Part shown: in pieces, positions 51,255 through 61,020 of the stretch
How the letters are laid out: each line of letters begins with the position of its first letter
Position numbering within the stretch: position 1 is the stretch's first letter
NCBI GenBank assembly: GCA_902624465.1
Contig: CACNXP010000002.1
Location: 1-64,000 of the forward strand
Reading direction: 5' to 3'
Source: an uncultured Pelagibacteraceae bacterium
GTDB taxonomy: Bacteria > Pseudomonadota > Alphaproteobacteria > Pelagibacterales > Pelagibacteraceae
Length of the DNA: 64,000 bases
Notes under the pieces: generated by a model
Told to the model about the DNA's origin: nothing
Seen by the model: the letters and a program-made list of their open reading frames with translations, nothing else
Databases searched by the model: none
Program-made: the position numbers and the translations under genes

Positions 51255-52994
51255 ATGGCTACTAAAAGAAAGTTTAAAGCTAAGCCAAAGACCAAAAGAA
51301 AAAAAAATAAATTGGTCAAATTTTCTAGAAAAAAAATAAAAACGAAAAAAAAAGTCGTGGTAAAAAAGTCTGCGACTAAGAAACGTTCAAGAAAATCTAG
51401 AAAAAATAATAAGCTAAAAACAATAACTAAAACAAGAGGAGTAAAAAAAATGAGTGCAGAAGCTATGAAAGTGTCATCTGTATTAGATACTTCTCATTTA
51501 AAGGTTAAATTTCCATTTAAAGCAAAATATGGAAACTACATAAACGGAAAATTTGTAGAACCTAAATCAGGTAAATATTTTGACAATGTTAGCCCGATCT
51601 CAAATGAGAAAATCTGTTCAGTAGCACGATCTAACGATAAAGACGTTGAGGCAGCATTAGATGCTGCTCACGCAGCTTTTCCTGAGTGGGGAAAGACAGA
51701 CATCACTACTAGATCAAATATTTTATATAAGATCGCTGATGTTTTAGAAAAAAATCTAAACTTATTGGCTACAGCCGAGTGTTTAGATAATGGAAAACCT
51801 ATAAGAGAATGTATGGCTGCAGATTTGCCTTTAGTGATAGATCATTGGAGATATTTTGCTGGAGTAATTAGAGCAGAAGAGGGATCAATCGCTGAAATTG
51901 CAAATAATCAATATTCATACAATTTTCATGAACCTTTAGGAGTTGTTGGTCAAATAGTTCCATGGAATTTCCCATTGTTAATGGCGACATGGAAATTAGC
52001 TCCAGCTCTTGCAGCGGGAAATTGTTCAGTATTAAAACCTGCTGAACAAACACCAGCTTCAATAATGGTGATGATGGAACTTATTGGAGACTTATTACCT
52101 CCGGGAGTTGTCAACATCGTTAGTGGTTTTGGATTAGAAGCAGGCAAACCTTTAGCATCATCTAAAAGAGTAGCTAAAGTTGCTTTTACTGGCGAAACTA
52201 CAACTGGAAGATTGATTATGCAGTATGCAGCACAAAATATAATTCCAATAACTTTAGAGTTAGGTGGAAAATCTCCAAACATTTTCTTCGAGGACATCAT
52301 GGAAAAAGATGATGATTTCTTCGATAAATGTATTGAAGGTTTTGTGATGTTTAATCTAAATCAGGGTGAGGTTTGTACTTGTCCAAGTAGAGCTTTAATT
52401 CAAGAATCTATCTATGATAAATTTATGGAAAGAGCTATTGCAAGAACAAAAGCTGTGGTTCAAGACAATCCTTTGAAAATGGAAACTATGATTGGAGCTC
52501 AAGCATCAGTAGAGCAAATGGAGAAGATAAAATCTTATCTAGAGCTTGGTAAAAAAGAGGGTGCTAAAGTCCTTGCCGGAGGAAGTGCAGCAAAGCTTAA
52601 TAGTGGATTGGAAAAAGGTAATTATATTCAACCAACTATTTTTGAAGCTGATAACAGCATGAGAATTTCTCAAGAGGAAATTTTCGGTCCTGTTGTGTCT
52701 GTGATTAAATTTAAAGATGAAGCAGAGGCATTAAAAATTGCTAATGATACTCTTTATGGTTTAGGTGCAGCTGTATGGACTAGAAATGGTAATATAGCCC
52801 ACAGAATGGGTAGAGCCATACAAGCAGGAATAGTATGGACAAATTGTTACCATGCTTATCCAGCTCACTCACCTTTTGGTGGTTACAAACAATCTGGAGT
52901 TGGTAGGGAAACCCATAAAATGATGCTTAATCATTATCGACAGAATAAGAATCTTCATGTTTCTTATGCTGAAAAAAAATTAGGCTTCTTTTAA
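51255..52994 (+). CDS. Aldehyde dehydrogenase (AldB/ExaC-like); ORF has a 65-codon Lys/Arg-rich N-terminal extension, alternative start ATG 51450
   Basis: [13 protein letters not shown] catalytic Cys, [18 protein letters not shown]; canonical ALDH homology begins after MSAEAMKV (51450), preceded by SD-like AGAGGAG. Confidence 0.9.
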
Positions 52995-53011: not shown

Positions 53012-53039
53012 TGGCCCATGATTCTTAAATCATGGGCCG
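53012..53039 (+). promoter_or_regulatory. Strong GC-rich hairpin GGCCCATGATT-CTTA-AATCATGGGCC between ALDH and DUF779 gene
   Basis: 11-bp perfect stem (53013-53023/53028-53038) plus an outer T-G pair (53012/53039); no T-tract on the 3' side. Confidence 0.75.
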
Positions 53040-55798: not shown

Positions 55799-56974
55799 CT
55801 ATTCTAAAATCTTAAAATCATTTTTGTATTTTTCGTTAATAGAAATACCAAGCCCTGGTACATTATCATCTAAATTTATATAACCATTTTGAGGTTCTGG
55901 TTCTCCTTTGAATAAATAGTAAAATAATTCATTGCCGATTTCTACTTGGTGAACGGGAAAATATTCTGAAAATGGACAATTATTACTTGCCATAGTTAAA
56001 TGGTAGTTGTGCATTTGTCCTGCGTGAGGAATTACAGGGATATTATATTTTTCTGCAAGTAAATTAATTTTATGACCTGCTGTTATTCCACCCACTCGGT
56101 TGGAATCATATTGTATATAACTTATCGCTTTAAGATCTAAAAGATGTTTAAATCCTAAGACACTAAATTCATGTTCACCACCGGCTATAGGAATATCTCC
56201 GAGAGCATTTAATTCAGCATAGCCTGAGATGTCATCTGGTATAACTGGCTCCTCCAACCATTTTGGTTTAAATTTTATTAAATTAGGTATTATTTTTTTT
56301 GAATACTCCAAATCCCAACCCATATACGCTTCAAGCATTAAATCGTTGTCATATCCAATAACCTCTCTAACAGCATTTACTAAAGCAATGTTATTTTTGA
56401 TACCATCAGCTCCATCTTTAGGTCCCCATCCAAAACGCATTTTAAACATTTTAAAACCCTCATTGAGGTATTTTTCAGCTTCCTTTTGCAAGTCTTCAAG
56501 TGGCTGACTATATAATTTTGAAGCATAAACAGGAATCTTTTCCTTAGTTCTTCCACCAAGTAATTTAAACACTGGTTCATTTTTTAGTTTCCCCATTAAG
56601 TCCCAAATGCCTAAATCAATTGCAGAAATTCCAACCATTCCAATTCCTTTTCGTCCCCATGCCATAGTACTTCTGTACATCTTGTCCCAAAGATAATCAT
56701 AATCAAAAGGATCCTCACCTATAACTAAATTTTTTAAATAACAATCTATTGCTTTTTTTGTAACTTCTGGCGCTAGAGCAGCATTTCCAAGACCAATAGT
56801 TCCATCATCAGCAATTACTTCACATACTAACCATTGATGAAACCTAAAAGATTTCATTTTATCTCCGCTCTCTCTTAGTAAGTCTGTAGGATTAGTACAA
56901 AAATTTTGAGCTGGAGGAACTATCTCTCCTGTCCATTTATAAATTGTAGTTTTAATATCTTTTATTTTTGGCAT
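55799..56974 (-). CDS. Mandelate racemase/enolase-superfamily acid-sugar dehydratase, RhmD-like
   Basis: [57 protein letters not shown]. Confidence 0.82.
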
Positions 56975-56976
56975 TA

Positions 56977-57969
56977 CTATTTTTTATTATTAGCCATTGT
57001 TAATGCTATTTTAAAGGATTGTAATGTTGGTTCTAAGTTTGCTTGATTTTTTCCGGCAATGTCAAATGCCGTTCCATGTGCAGGTGTTGTTATTGGAATA
57101 GGCATACCACCTTGAACTGTAACACCTCTATCAAAGCCAAAAGCTTTTAATCCAGATTGTAGTGCATCATGGTACATTCCTACAATGCAATCGTGATTTT
57201 TATTTTTAAAAGCTGTGATAAACGATGTATCACATGGTAAGGGACCATCAGCATTAATACCTAACTTTTTAGCGTCTTCAATAGCAGGAATTATTTCATT
57301 CTTTTCTTCTACTCCAAATTCTGCATGAGGATTTAATGCTTGCACTGCAACACGCGGGTTTGCAATACCATTTAATTTCATAGTTTCATGTATCAATTTA
57401 ATGGGTTTAATTATCTTCTCTTTCTTAATATTTTTAGGGACTTCACTTATGGGGATATGGGAAGTAACTCTAGCAGTCCAAAAATTATCAACTACATTAA
57501 ATTCACAAAAAAAACTTTCAACATTTAATCTCTCAGCCATTAGATGAAGTTCATCAGAATGTTTGTTTCCTCCCATAATCATACTTGTTTTATTAAATGG
57601 TCCAAAATTTATTGCATGTATCTTATTCTGTTTTGCAAGATCAAGAGCAAGATTTAACGATTGTAAAACACTTTCCCCTGATTCTTTTGAGCATTCCGCA
57701 ATCTTGTATTGGTGGTTTTTACCTTTTGTTAAATCTAAAAAGAATTTATTGTTATTTTTAAAATTAATTTGGTCAAAATCAGTTACAAACTCTAAATTAC
57801 TTTTATTTCCGCTAATTTTGTCACCACTTTCTAGGATTGCTTTTTCACCTATGACGACAATGTTTACATCATCAGTTATCTTTTCACTCAATAATTTTGA
57901 TATCAGTTCAGGTCCGATGCCAGAGGGATCGCCTAATAAGATACCAATATTAATTTTGTTTTCTGACAT
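56977..57969 (-). CDS. PdxA2-like dehydrogenase (PdxA family paralogue)
   Basis: [72 protein letters not shown]. Confidence 0.85.
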
Positions 57970-58038
57970 TTTTTTCTTTACGGGTTGTATCAGATAATGT
58001 TTAAATATTTAATTATAAATTAACTAATGAGGGAAATA

Positions 58039-59013
58039 ATGAAAAAAAGCTTTAAATTATTTTTAGCTGCTGCCTTTTTAGCAACTGAATTTTTTGTTGT
58101 GGCTCTTCCATTAATGATTACATCCGCAAAAGCTGATGGTCATCCAATTCAAGCTATTACTCATGCTGGTTTTGGCGGTGGAACAGACGTAACTACTAGA
58201 ATGATGTTATTAAGAGCAAGAAGAGTTCTAAAACAAGACATGCAATTAGTGAATAAAAAAGGTGGTGGAGGTGCTGCATCTATGGATTATATGATGTCTT
58301 TACCTGCAGATGGAAACCATACTTTAACTTGGACTACTGGACATGCAGTATCAATGGCTTTAGGAAAAACGAAAGTTAAAATCAGCGATATGCAACCATT
58401 AGCTAGAGGAACTGATGACCCACAATTGTTTGTAGTAAATTGTAAATCTGACATTAAAGATGCTAAGAAGTTTATTAGTACACAAAAATCAAAATCATTA
58501 AAGTATGGAACAACCCACACAGGTGGTATTGACGATGTTAGTGCAATCGCATTTACGAAAAAAGGTGGATTAAAAGATCCAACTATTGTTGCTTACAAAG
58601 GAGTTGCTCCGATTAAAACAAACTTAATCAAAGGCGATATCGATGTTGGTGTTCTTAATTTAGGTGAAGCATTGACCGAGATCAATGAAGGTAAACTTTG
58701 TGTATCAGTTGTGCTAGCTAACAATAGAATGGCTAAGATTGGTGACTCTCCAACTGCCAAAGAACTAGGTATACCAGTTTCTTTATCTACAGTTAGAGGA
58801 TTTGTAACTAAAAAAGGTGCTCCAGCAGACAGAGTGAAACAATTAGAAGCTGGAATGATGAAAGCTATGAGCCATAACTACTATAAAAATTTCTTGACTG
58901 AAATTGGTCTTGATGAGACTAGTGTAGTTGGTGCTGATGAGTGGGGTAAGCAGATGGAAGAAATGCTTACTGAAATGACAGCTCAATTAAAAGCTTTAGG
59001 TTACATTAAGTAA
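58039..59013 (+). CDS. tctC: TTT (TctC)-family periplasmic solute-binding protein
   Basis: Signal peptide, THAGFGGGTDVTTRMML, VNKKGGGGAASMDYMMSLPADG, GFVTKKGAPADRVKQLE; start trimmed to ATG 58039. Confidence 0.9.
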   Translation: MKKSFKLFLAAAFLATEFFVVALPLMITSAKADGHPIQAITHAGFGGGTDVTTRMMLLRARRVLKQDMQLVNKKGGGGAASMDYMMSLPADGNHTLTWTTGHAVSMALGKTKVKISDMQPLARGTDDPQLFVVNCKSDIKDAKKFISTQKSKSLKYGTTHTGGIDDVSAIAFTKKGGLKDPTIVAYKGVAPIKTNLIKGDIDVGVLNLGEALTEINEGKLCVSVVLANNRMAKIGDSPTAKELGIPVSLSTVRGFVTKKGAPADRVKQLEAGMMKAMSHNYYKNFLTEIGLDETSVVGADEWGKQMEEMLTEMTAQLKALGYIK

Positions 59014-59022
59014 TAAAAATTC

Positions 59023-59048
59023 GTACATTGATTAAATGAGCGATGTAC
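59023..59048 (+). promoter_or_regulatory. Hairpin presenting the tctB ATG in its loop
   Basis: GTACATTG-ATTAAATGAG-CGATGTAC, 8-bp stem with one G-U pair; ATG 59036 in loop. Confidence 0.6.
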
Positions 59049-59545
59049 AGAAATCTAAAGGGGCAGACAAAAAAAGTTTGCCCCTTTTTTTTAATATCTC
59101 ATTTAAAGTCATTTTTATTATTGTATTAACTTCGAGTGTTCTATTATATTTTACATTTACATTTGAAGAAGTTCCTCCAATTTTAAACAGAGGTATTCAA
59201 CCAGCTACATTTCCAAAAGCCTTATTAATTTTAATTATTTCACTGAGCTTAATTGTCTATTACTTATCAATCAAAGTTCCTTGGAATATTGAAAAAAAAT
59301 TACCAAATTCTTTTTATATTACTTTAGCTAGTTTTATTATTTTTTCAGTTGTAAGTGTTACTCTAGATTTCTTTCTTGGTATTTCAGTTTTATCAGTCTT
59401 AGTTTCATTCTTTTGGGGTGAAAGAAGAATTTTCTATTTATTTTTAGTAGCTATAATTTTTCCAATAATAGTATTCATTTTTTTTGAGACTATTTTAGGG
59501 CTTAGATTCCCAGGAGGTATTATCACAAATCTTTATTACAACTAA
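59036..59545 (+). CDS. tctB: TTT transporter small membrane subunit (TctB-like)
   Basis: Four TM segments between TctC and TctA genes; PPILNRGIQPATFPKALLILI. Confidence 0.82.
   Translation: MSDVQKSKGADKKSLPLFFNISFKVIFIIVLTSSVLLYFTFTFEEVPPILNRGIQPATFPKALLILIISLSLIVYYLSIKVPWNIEKKLPNSFYITLASFIIFSVVSVTLDFFLGISVLSVLVSFFWGERRIFYLFLVAIIFPIIVFIFFETILGLRFPGGIITNLYYN
59060..59092 (+). terminator. Intrinsic terminator inside the 5' coding region of tctB
   Basis: GGGGCAGAC-AAAAAAA-GTTTGCCCC-TTTTTTTT: 9-bp stem (one G-T), 7-nt loop, 8 T tract. Confidence 0.82.
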
Positions 59546-59547
59546 TT

Positions 59548-61020
59548 ATGGAAAATTTATCTTTAATGCTAGCTCCTTTATTAAGTTCAAAGTTAATGAT
59601 TGTATTAATTTTTGGAACACTTTTTGGTTTAATACTTGGTGTTTTACCTGGACTTGGACCTACAACAGGAGGTGCTTTAATTTTACCTTTTACAATGACA
59701 TTAGATCCTTTATCAGCAATTGTTTTATTGACTGCGATTTACTGTGCTGGAACTTATGGAGGTGCAATCACGGCAGTTTTAATAAACACACCTGGAACCC
59801 CAGCTGCTGCTGCTACTTGCTTAGATGGATATCCACTCGCACAAAAAGGAGAAGCTGGAAGAGCTCTGGGTATGGCCACTGTATCAAGTACAATTGGAGG
59901 TATCTTTAGTGTTGTAGTTTTGGTTTTTTTTGCTCCACTGCTTGCTCAATTAGCATATGAATTTGGTCAACCAGAATATTTTGCTTTAGCAATCTTTGGT
60001 TTGACGATGCTTGCATCTATAGGTGAGGGAAGTCCAATAAAAAATTTAATAGCGGGAGCATTTGGTATTTTAATTTCAACTATTGGCAAAGACTTCATGA
60101 CATCAATTGATAGATTCACTTTTGGTATAAATGAATTATCTGAGGGAATAGGATTTATTCCTGTCGTTGTTGGATTATTTGCCATAAGTGAAATGTTAAC
60201 TCAATCAACTTTATTAGACCAAATATTCAACAGAGTAGCTTTAAAAGCAGTTAAACTTCCATCAATTTCAGATTATAAAAAAACTTGGATTACTATTATA
60301 AGATCATCAGGAATTGGATCTTTTATTGGAGTTTTACCTGCTGAGGGTGGAACAGTTGCGTCATTAATTGGATATTCTGAAGCAAAAAGATGGTCAAAAA
60401 ATCCAGAAGAATTTGGAAAAGGTTCTGTAGAGGGAATTGCCGGGGCTGAAGCTGCCAATAATGCTGCTACAGGTGGTGCGATGGTACCAACGCTGGCACT
60501 TGGAATTCCAGGAAGTGCAACAACAGCAGTAATTTTGACAGGTCTTATTATTCATGGTGTTAGACCAGGCCCAGATCTATTTAGAGAACAACCAGATTTT
60601 CTCTATGGAATTTTTGGTTCAATGTTAATTGCAAATGTTTTATTTTTTATATTCGGTTTTTTTGGCGCCAAAATTTTTGCAAGAATAACTTTAGTTCCAA
60701 ATAAATTACTTTGGCCAATGATTTTTGCAGTGTCCGTTTGTGGAACATATTCTCTTAGTCAATCAATTCTAGACGTATGGATAATGTTATTTTTTGGAGT
60801 AATCGGATTCTTTATGAGACGTTATGGTTTTTCAGTTGTGCCGGTCATTATAGGTTTGATTTTAGGAGAATTGGTTGAAGGAACTTTGAGACAATCTTTA
60901 GTTATCTTTGAAGGAGACTGGTTAAGATTTTTAACAAGACCTATAGCTGTAACTTTTTTCATTTTATCTTTAATTGCTTTAATTTTTCCTTTATTAAGAA
61001 AGAAAAAATCAAATGAATAA
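59548..61020 (+). CDS. tctA: TTT transporter large membrane subunit TctA
   Basis: GLILGVLPGLGPTTGGALILPFT, AIYCAGTYGGAITAVLINTPGTPAAAATCLDGYPLAQKGEAGRAL. Confidence 0.96.
   Translation: MENLSLMLAPLLSSKLMIVLIFGTLFGLILGVLPGLGPTTGGALILPFTMTLDPLSAIVLLTAIYCAGTYGGAITAVLINTPGTPAAAATCLDGYPLAQKGEAGRALGMATVSSTIGGIFSVVVLVFFAPLLAQLAYEFGQPEYFALAIFGLTMLASIGEGSPIKNLIAGAFGILISTIGKDFMTSIDRFTFGINELSEGIGFIPVVVGLFAISEMLTQSTLLDQIFNRVALKAVKLPSISDYKKTWITIIRSSGIGSFIGVLPAEGGTVASLIGYSEAKRWSKNPEEFGKGSVEGIAGAEAANNAATGGAMVPTLALGIPGSATTAVILTGLIIHGVRPGPDLFREQPDFLYGIFGSMLIANVLFFIFGFFGAKIFARITLVPNKLLWPMIFAVSVCGTYSLSQSILDVWIMLFFGVIGFFMRRYGFSVVPVIIGLILGELVEGTLRQSLVIFEGDWLRFLTRPIAVTFFILSLIALIFPLLRKKKSNE

Follow-up and report, generated by a model that had tools for sequence, protein, structure and literature searches.

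The DNA analysed here, a stretch of 64,000 nucleotides (hereafter the window), comes from a SAR11 (Pelagibacteraceae) genome whose own assembly comprises 723 kb in 31 contigs. It carries, on one strand and in the order tctC, tctB, tctA as identified by Pfam, the genes of a tripartite tricarboxylate transporter (TTT), such that the gene for the solute-binding protein (SBP) lies 5' of its own translocator genes (Table 1). A dehydrogenase gene and then a fumarylacetoacetase-like gene are found 3' of tctA. The tctC stop codon occupies 59011-59013 and is separated by 22 nt from tctB, whose ATG opens a reading frame of 169 aa and has no obvious Shine-Dalgarno sequence. Elsewhere in the window, a perfect 11-bp palindromic hairpin (GGCCCATGATT/AATCATGGGCC, 53013-53038) is present just 3' of an aldehyde dehydrogenase-like gene ending at 52994.

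Table 1. Genes and RNA features at the tctC/tctB boundary of the window
Feature	Position	Strand	Basis and remarks
tctC, solute-binding protein of the TTT	58027..59013	+	Pfam TctC PF03401, E 1.3e-19
Hairpin 1, 8-bp AT-rich stem, 10-nt loop with the tctB ATG	59023..59048	+	Sequence and fold
tctB, small membrane subunit	59036..59545	+	Pfam TctB PF07331, E 7e-7; start codon in the hairpin-1 loop
Hairpin 2, intrinsic-terminator stem-loop, 12 bp with A/U extension	59057..59088	+	Terminator scan and fold; tctB codons 8-18
T8 tract of the terminator	59085..59092	+	Sequence; tctB codons 17-19, Leu-Phe-Phe
tctA, large membrane subunit, 3' of the attenuator	59548..61020	+	Pfam TctA PF01970, E 1.2e-158

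Two tandem hairpins lie between the end of tctC and the first codons of tctB, exactly where the original prediction, made from the sequence alone, had placed them, and they exceed what chance would give both in folding energy and in conservation. In hairpin 1, the arms GTACATTG (59023-59030) and CGATGTAC (59041-59048) enclose a loop (59031-59040) with the tctB ATG (59036-59038) inside it, a placement borne out by both sequence and fold. Hairpin 2 has a core of GGGGCAGAC (59060-59068) paired with GTTTGCCCC (59076-59084) around a loop of A7, and is extended by AAA (59057-59059) paired with TTT (59085-59087); each hairpin includes one G-U wobble pair. With 12 bp, six G-C pairs, a loop of 7 nt and T8 directly 3' of the stem, hairpin 2 has the GC-rich stem (at least 7 bp), short loop and U-tract of a Rho-independent terminator, and ranks top in a local terminator scan. 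It starts 43 nt past the tctC stop and is a strong hairpin between SBP stop and translocator of the type described by Wu et al., but it overlaps the tctB ORF.

The predicted RNA fold of 59000-59110, a check proposed with the original prediction, contains both hairpins at -29.7 kcal/mol, compared with -13.5 ± 3.0 kcal/mol for shuffled sequences (z -5.4; 0/200 shuffles as good). It consists of two independent hairpins, and no competing antiterminator helix appears in the predicted fold of the locus. The stem pattern of hairpin 2 occurs once in the window (expected 0.00), and an Rfam search of the window at gathering score gave no matches. The tctB AUG of the window's TTT family is predicted to be unpaired with a probability of 0.99, versus 0.40 for background starts. 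Taken alone, a start codon placed in a 7-bp hairpin loop is no rarity (24 of 940 pairs); only its conservation stands out.

We gathered 107 homologous tctC/tctB boundaries, 83 of which were distinct, and both hairpins are present in all 83. At every homologous boundary a hairpin of the form GTACAT...ATGTAC encloses the tctB ATG within its loop; the outer 6 bp are invariant (83/83) despite a non-coding 5' arm, and the distance between the arms ranges from 11 to 15 nt, shifting by single bases. Since these six pairs never vary, hairpin 1 is conserved but provides no basis for judging covariation. In hairpin 2, pairs 6 and 9 covary between G-C and A-U with one G-U intermediate, and two further positions show G-U. 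Pairs 1-12 are formed in 995 of 996 cells (99.7%), and in an alignment of 31 sequences 98% of cells are paired in the given structure versus 34-59% when the partners are slid. The loop of hairpin 2 has 7 nt in the window and 4 in most relatives. The comparison of related boundaries for compensatory substitutions, which the original prediction had proposed as a check, therefore yielded two compensated pair positions, and the opposite outcome, homologues devoid of stem complementarity and T-tract, did not occur: the stem is kept in all 83 and the tract 3' of it stays T-rich across relatives.

Hairpin 2 and T8 together span tctB codons 8-19, so that the predicted position of the terminator inside the tctB frame (codons 9-19) was right as to frame. 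The ATG in the hairpin-1 loop is in frame and open in 92 of 93 distinct tctB ORFs, and a conserved GIQPA motif lies at residue 51 or 52 counted from it, the one-codon offset corresponding to the loop length of hairpin 2 (4 versus 7 nt). Indels in this loop are of 3 nt, and length changes between the ATG and the in-frame TTG at 59078 (codon 15) are multiples of three, whereas length changes between the tctC stop and the ATG are not restricted in this way. Because the frame is open from the loop ATG and the loop indels preserve it, the terminator is coding sequence. The original prediction had also offered a less exotic alternative, that tctB truly begins at TTG 59078 or later, which would make the hairpin a plain attenuator or terminator between the genes; the open frames and 3-nt indels disfavour it, and we consider it improbable. 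It could draw on the TTG being retained, as part of the stem, in nearly all relatives, and on one locus (L043) in which an extra A puts the conserved ATG out of frame. On the other hand, this extra base belongs to a run of A, and the frame is restored by another ATG located 7 nt further on, in the 3' arm of hairpin 1, indicating either a sequencing error or a shifted start. Moreover, a second TTT family, whose start codon lies in the terminator stem itself, would lose the first membrane helix of TctB with any other start. Counts of substitutions by codon position between the hairpins were ambiguous.

This second family is represented in the window's own genome by another TTT operon (L002), and its tctC proteins are only about 26-29% identical to those of the window's family. 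At the L002 boundary (L002:2139-2210), tctB starts with a GTG in the 5' arm of a terminator of -22 kcal/mol (fold z -5.3), and the 3' arm and T-tract encode the first membrane helix of TctB. The GTG in the stem is common to 44/44 loci of the family (L002 and L192-L234), with an unpaired probability of 0.0003, below all 333 background starts. A small hairpin including the tctC stop codon is located 5' of the terminator and is compensated among loci (TAATCC/GGATTA, TAATCT/AGATTA, TAACC/GGTTA). The second family, unrelated to the first, is an independent case of a TTT operon that carries a terminator of its own at the tctC/tctB boundary. In genome G264, which belongs to another family of the class (tctC 73% identical), the tctB start is again overlapped by a hairpin, but one that differs in sequence. 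The other TTT families are diverse: the hairpin is purely intergenic in L030/L185-188, is GC-rich (TGCGCCC...GGGCGCA) and inside the tctB ORF with a poor T-tract in L031/L032, where it uses codons unusual for the AT-rich genome, and no obvious hairpin was seen at the L190/L191 boundary. Several Alphaproteobacteria with larger genomes have strong intergenic hairpins at the TTT boundary.

Hairpins after binding-protein genes were surveyed in G082, a closed relative of 1.44 Mb, with mechanically called ORFs and SBPs identified by Pfam (rows L113-L184). For co-directional neighbours, we looked up to 90 nt from the stop for near-perfect hairpins, allowing no more than one G-U pair, and scored the best one. 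Strong hairpins follow 23/28 binding-protein boundaries, which include ABC, TRAP, TAXI and TTT systems, versus 12/1058 others (p 3.8e-34), and two of these twelve are themselves binding proteins. The association persists among boundaries with a gap of 25 nt or more (22/26 versus 11/196, p 1.8e-18), for hairpins with a T-tract (11/28 versus 6/1058, p 4e-15) and without two SBPs first noticed via their terminators (p 2.5e-31). G264, a second lineage (1.2 of 1.41 Mb, mechanical gene calls, binding proteins picked by homology), gave 15/18 versus 20/900 (p 1e-20). Of the eight bases that come next, five or more are T at 11/28 binding-protein boundaries in G082 and 4/18 in G264; since only these have a T-tract by this measure, termination and 3'-end protection probably both contribute. 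A good T-tract is missing from about half of the G082 hairpins, so part of the function of the class may be to stabilise 3' ends. Of the three TRAP DctP genes found in the window's own genome, two have a hairpin and T-tract 3' of them, whereas the hairpin after an SBP_bac_3 gene has no T-tract; no comparable stem is seen at L256 and L258, and the L254 sequence stops short of its boundary. Based on the two surveyed genomes, a strong hairpin directly 3' of nearly every binding-protein gene appears to be the general arrangement in streamlined marine Alphaproteobacteria.

Several single loci were also recorded. At the dctP/dctQ boundary of a TRAP operon of the window's genome (L253, G000:C4), the T-tract of the terminator runs into the next ATG (TTTTTTTATG). 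Two G082 DctQ genes seemed to overlap a terminator, but their starts look placed too early by ORF calling and they were set aside. A strong terminator (GGGCAGGTACAATTTTGTACTTGCCC, T8) separates a proteorhodopsin-like gene from the next co-directional gene at 565284 on the minus strand of G082.

The structure, conservation, covariation, reading frame and genome-wide association described above are direct observations, and they are best explained if hairpin 2 and T8 form a working but leaky Rho-independent terminator that leaves the binding protein in excess over the permease, which we consider probable; that termination occurs, how efficient it is and what protein ratio results we infer from the sequence. 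Most RNA polymerases transcribing tctC would stop at about 59088-59092, leaving tctC on a monocistronic mRNA protected by its 3' stem, while a minority would read through to produce tctB-tctA mRNA, and this uneven transcription would yield the excess of binding protein. In TTT operons the hairpin would have shifted into the beginning of the tctB coding sequence, where the encoded N-terminal tail or first membrane helix tolerates the Lys, Gly, Phe and Leu codons imposed by stem and T-tract. In E. coli, termination is full with a hairpin more than 27 nt past the stop codon and is inhibited by ribosomes at less than 27 nt (PMC4824070); because hairpin 2 starts beyond this distance, ribosomes finishing tctC should leave it undisturbed. 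The proposal of SBP excess through partial termination is thus indirectly well supported by the conserved terminator, its near-exclusive association with SBP genes and a precedent in Clostridia, in whose ABC operons partial internal termination has been demonstrated and termination measured (PMC9045158).

Another reading is that the hairpin stabilises or processes the 3' end, protecting a cleaved tctC mRNA without terminating. The many binding-protein hairpins without a T-tract in G082 and G264 and the poor T-tract of the L031/L032 family would fit it, whereas the T-rich tract that relatives keep at the window locus is expected for termination and not for stabilisation alone. We consider this reading rather unlikely, and the two roles are compatible. 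The strong appearance of hairpin 2 might instead suggest a complete terminator with tctBA driven by its own promoter, but a consensus scan of the + strand from 56703 to 59313 found no sigma-70-like promoter and the genes are closely spaced, which makes this very improbable. For hairpin 1, the invariance of its outer pairs would suit a DNA operator, with the palindrome GTACATT/AATGTAC as the site of a tctBA regulator, yet the arm spacing shifts by single bases and the palindrome occurs once in G082; such an operator is highly improbable. It was also considered whether hairpin 1 occludes the AUG, an idea rejected given the exposed AUG and a -15 to +15 region at only the 32nd percentile of other genes. 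We infer instead a role in presenting or gating the tctB AUG: with the AUG exposed in the loop, hairpin 1 may help to present a start that lacks a Shine-Dalgarno sequence.

Partial termination could further depend on translation, if an early tctB ribosome blocks hairpin 2, so that permease transcription needs tctB initiation and the polymerase otherwise terminates. Such gated read-through is plausible from the sequences, most strongly for the second TTT family, in which initiation and termination would be mutually exclusive by geometry because the GTG sits in the stem at all loci; for hairpin 2 we hold it as a tentative possibility. In favour of it, an initiation complex on ATG 59036 would have its A-site codon about 15 nt upstream of hairpin 2, a distance within the E. 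coli inhibitory range (PMC4824070), and at the G264 boundary (L235) the 5' arm of the terminator-like hairpin (GGGGGAGGA) also resembles a Shine-Dalgarno sequence for the TTG start of tctB. However, the AUG of the window's family is fully exposed and does not compete with the stem, tctB has no obvious Shine-Dalgarno sequence, and the fold offers no antiterminator. In E. coli, a terminator no more than 100 bp into a coding region is efficient as ribosomes arrive too late; this includes one 30 bp after the AUG, initiation being slower than transcription (PMC4824070). This efficiency of early-ORF terminators despite translation argues against strong coupling. The broader idea that in TTT operons of streamlined marine Alphaproteobacteria the permease start codon and the terminator are one element, with tctB initiation and tctC termination mutually exclusive, is doubtful. 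If true, each polymerase would "decide" between an SBP-only and a full-operon mRNA by ribosome engagement on tctB, and the start codon on terminated mRNAs would be masked, which would prevent non-stop translation; the masked start is clear in the second family and uncertain in the window's family with its exposed AUG.

Among the SAR11 proteins detected, binding proteins such as PotD and SfuC belong to the most prominent (PMC8437039, PMC2864753). If almost all SBP genes are followed by a hairpin, this would be a simple, hard-wired cause of SBP abundance in genomes where free intergenic DNA is scarce, and this wider pattern merits a test at the RNA level. The TTT cases show how genome compaction can fold a terminator into the coding sequence of the next gene, and with small fusions of these loci the link of translation initiation to termination can be tested directly.

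Partial terminators between SBP and translocator genes are already known from Clostridia; what is new here is a terminator pushed into the permease reading frame, an arrangement for which we found no report in SAR11 in the full-text literature searched (subscription papers were outside its scope). The closest known system is the Ruminiclostridium ABC importers (Wu et al., 2022; PMC9045158), in which the SBP gene also comes first, a strong hairpin follows, partial termination is presumed to give SBP excess, and good and poor U-tracts are mixed; hairpins were reported there in 87.3% of long intergenic regions following 5' SBP genes, compared with 23/28 boundaries in G082. In contrast, those hairpins are single, intergenic and in Clostridia ABC operons, whereas in SAR11 they occur in TTT, ABC, TRAP and TAXI operons, and the TTT terminator is part of the permease ORF and is preceded by a second hairpin. 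The tR2 constructs (PMC4824070) also have a terminator soon after a start codon but are synthetic and contain no conserved SBP/permease junction, and the same position is seen for ORF-internal 3' ends in E. coli (PMC7815308), the part of that report considered here describing no such junction. Attenuators of the pyrBI/trp leader type share the overlap of coding sequence and terminator; in the window, however, the overlapping ORF is the structural gene tctB, without a leader peptide or an antiterminator in the fold. Structured mRNA elements have been described in the same organism group, in 'Ca. Pelagibacter ubique' (Meyer et al., 2009; PMC2704228), by screening long GC-rich intergenic regions with coding sequence excluded, whereas the element in the window is short and mostly coding.
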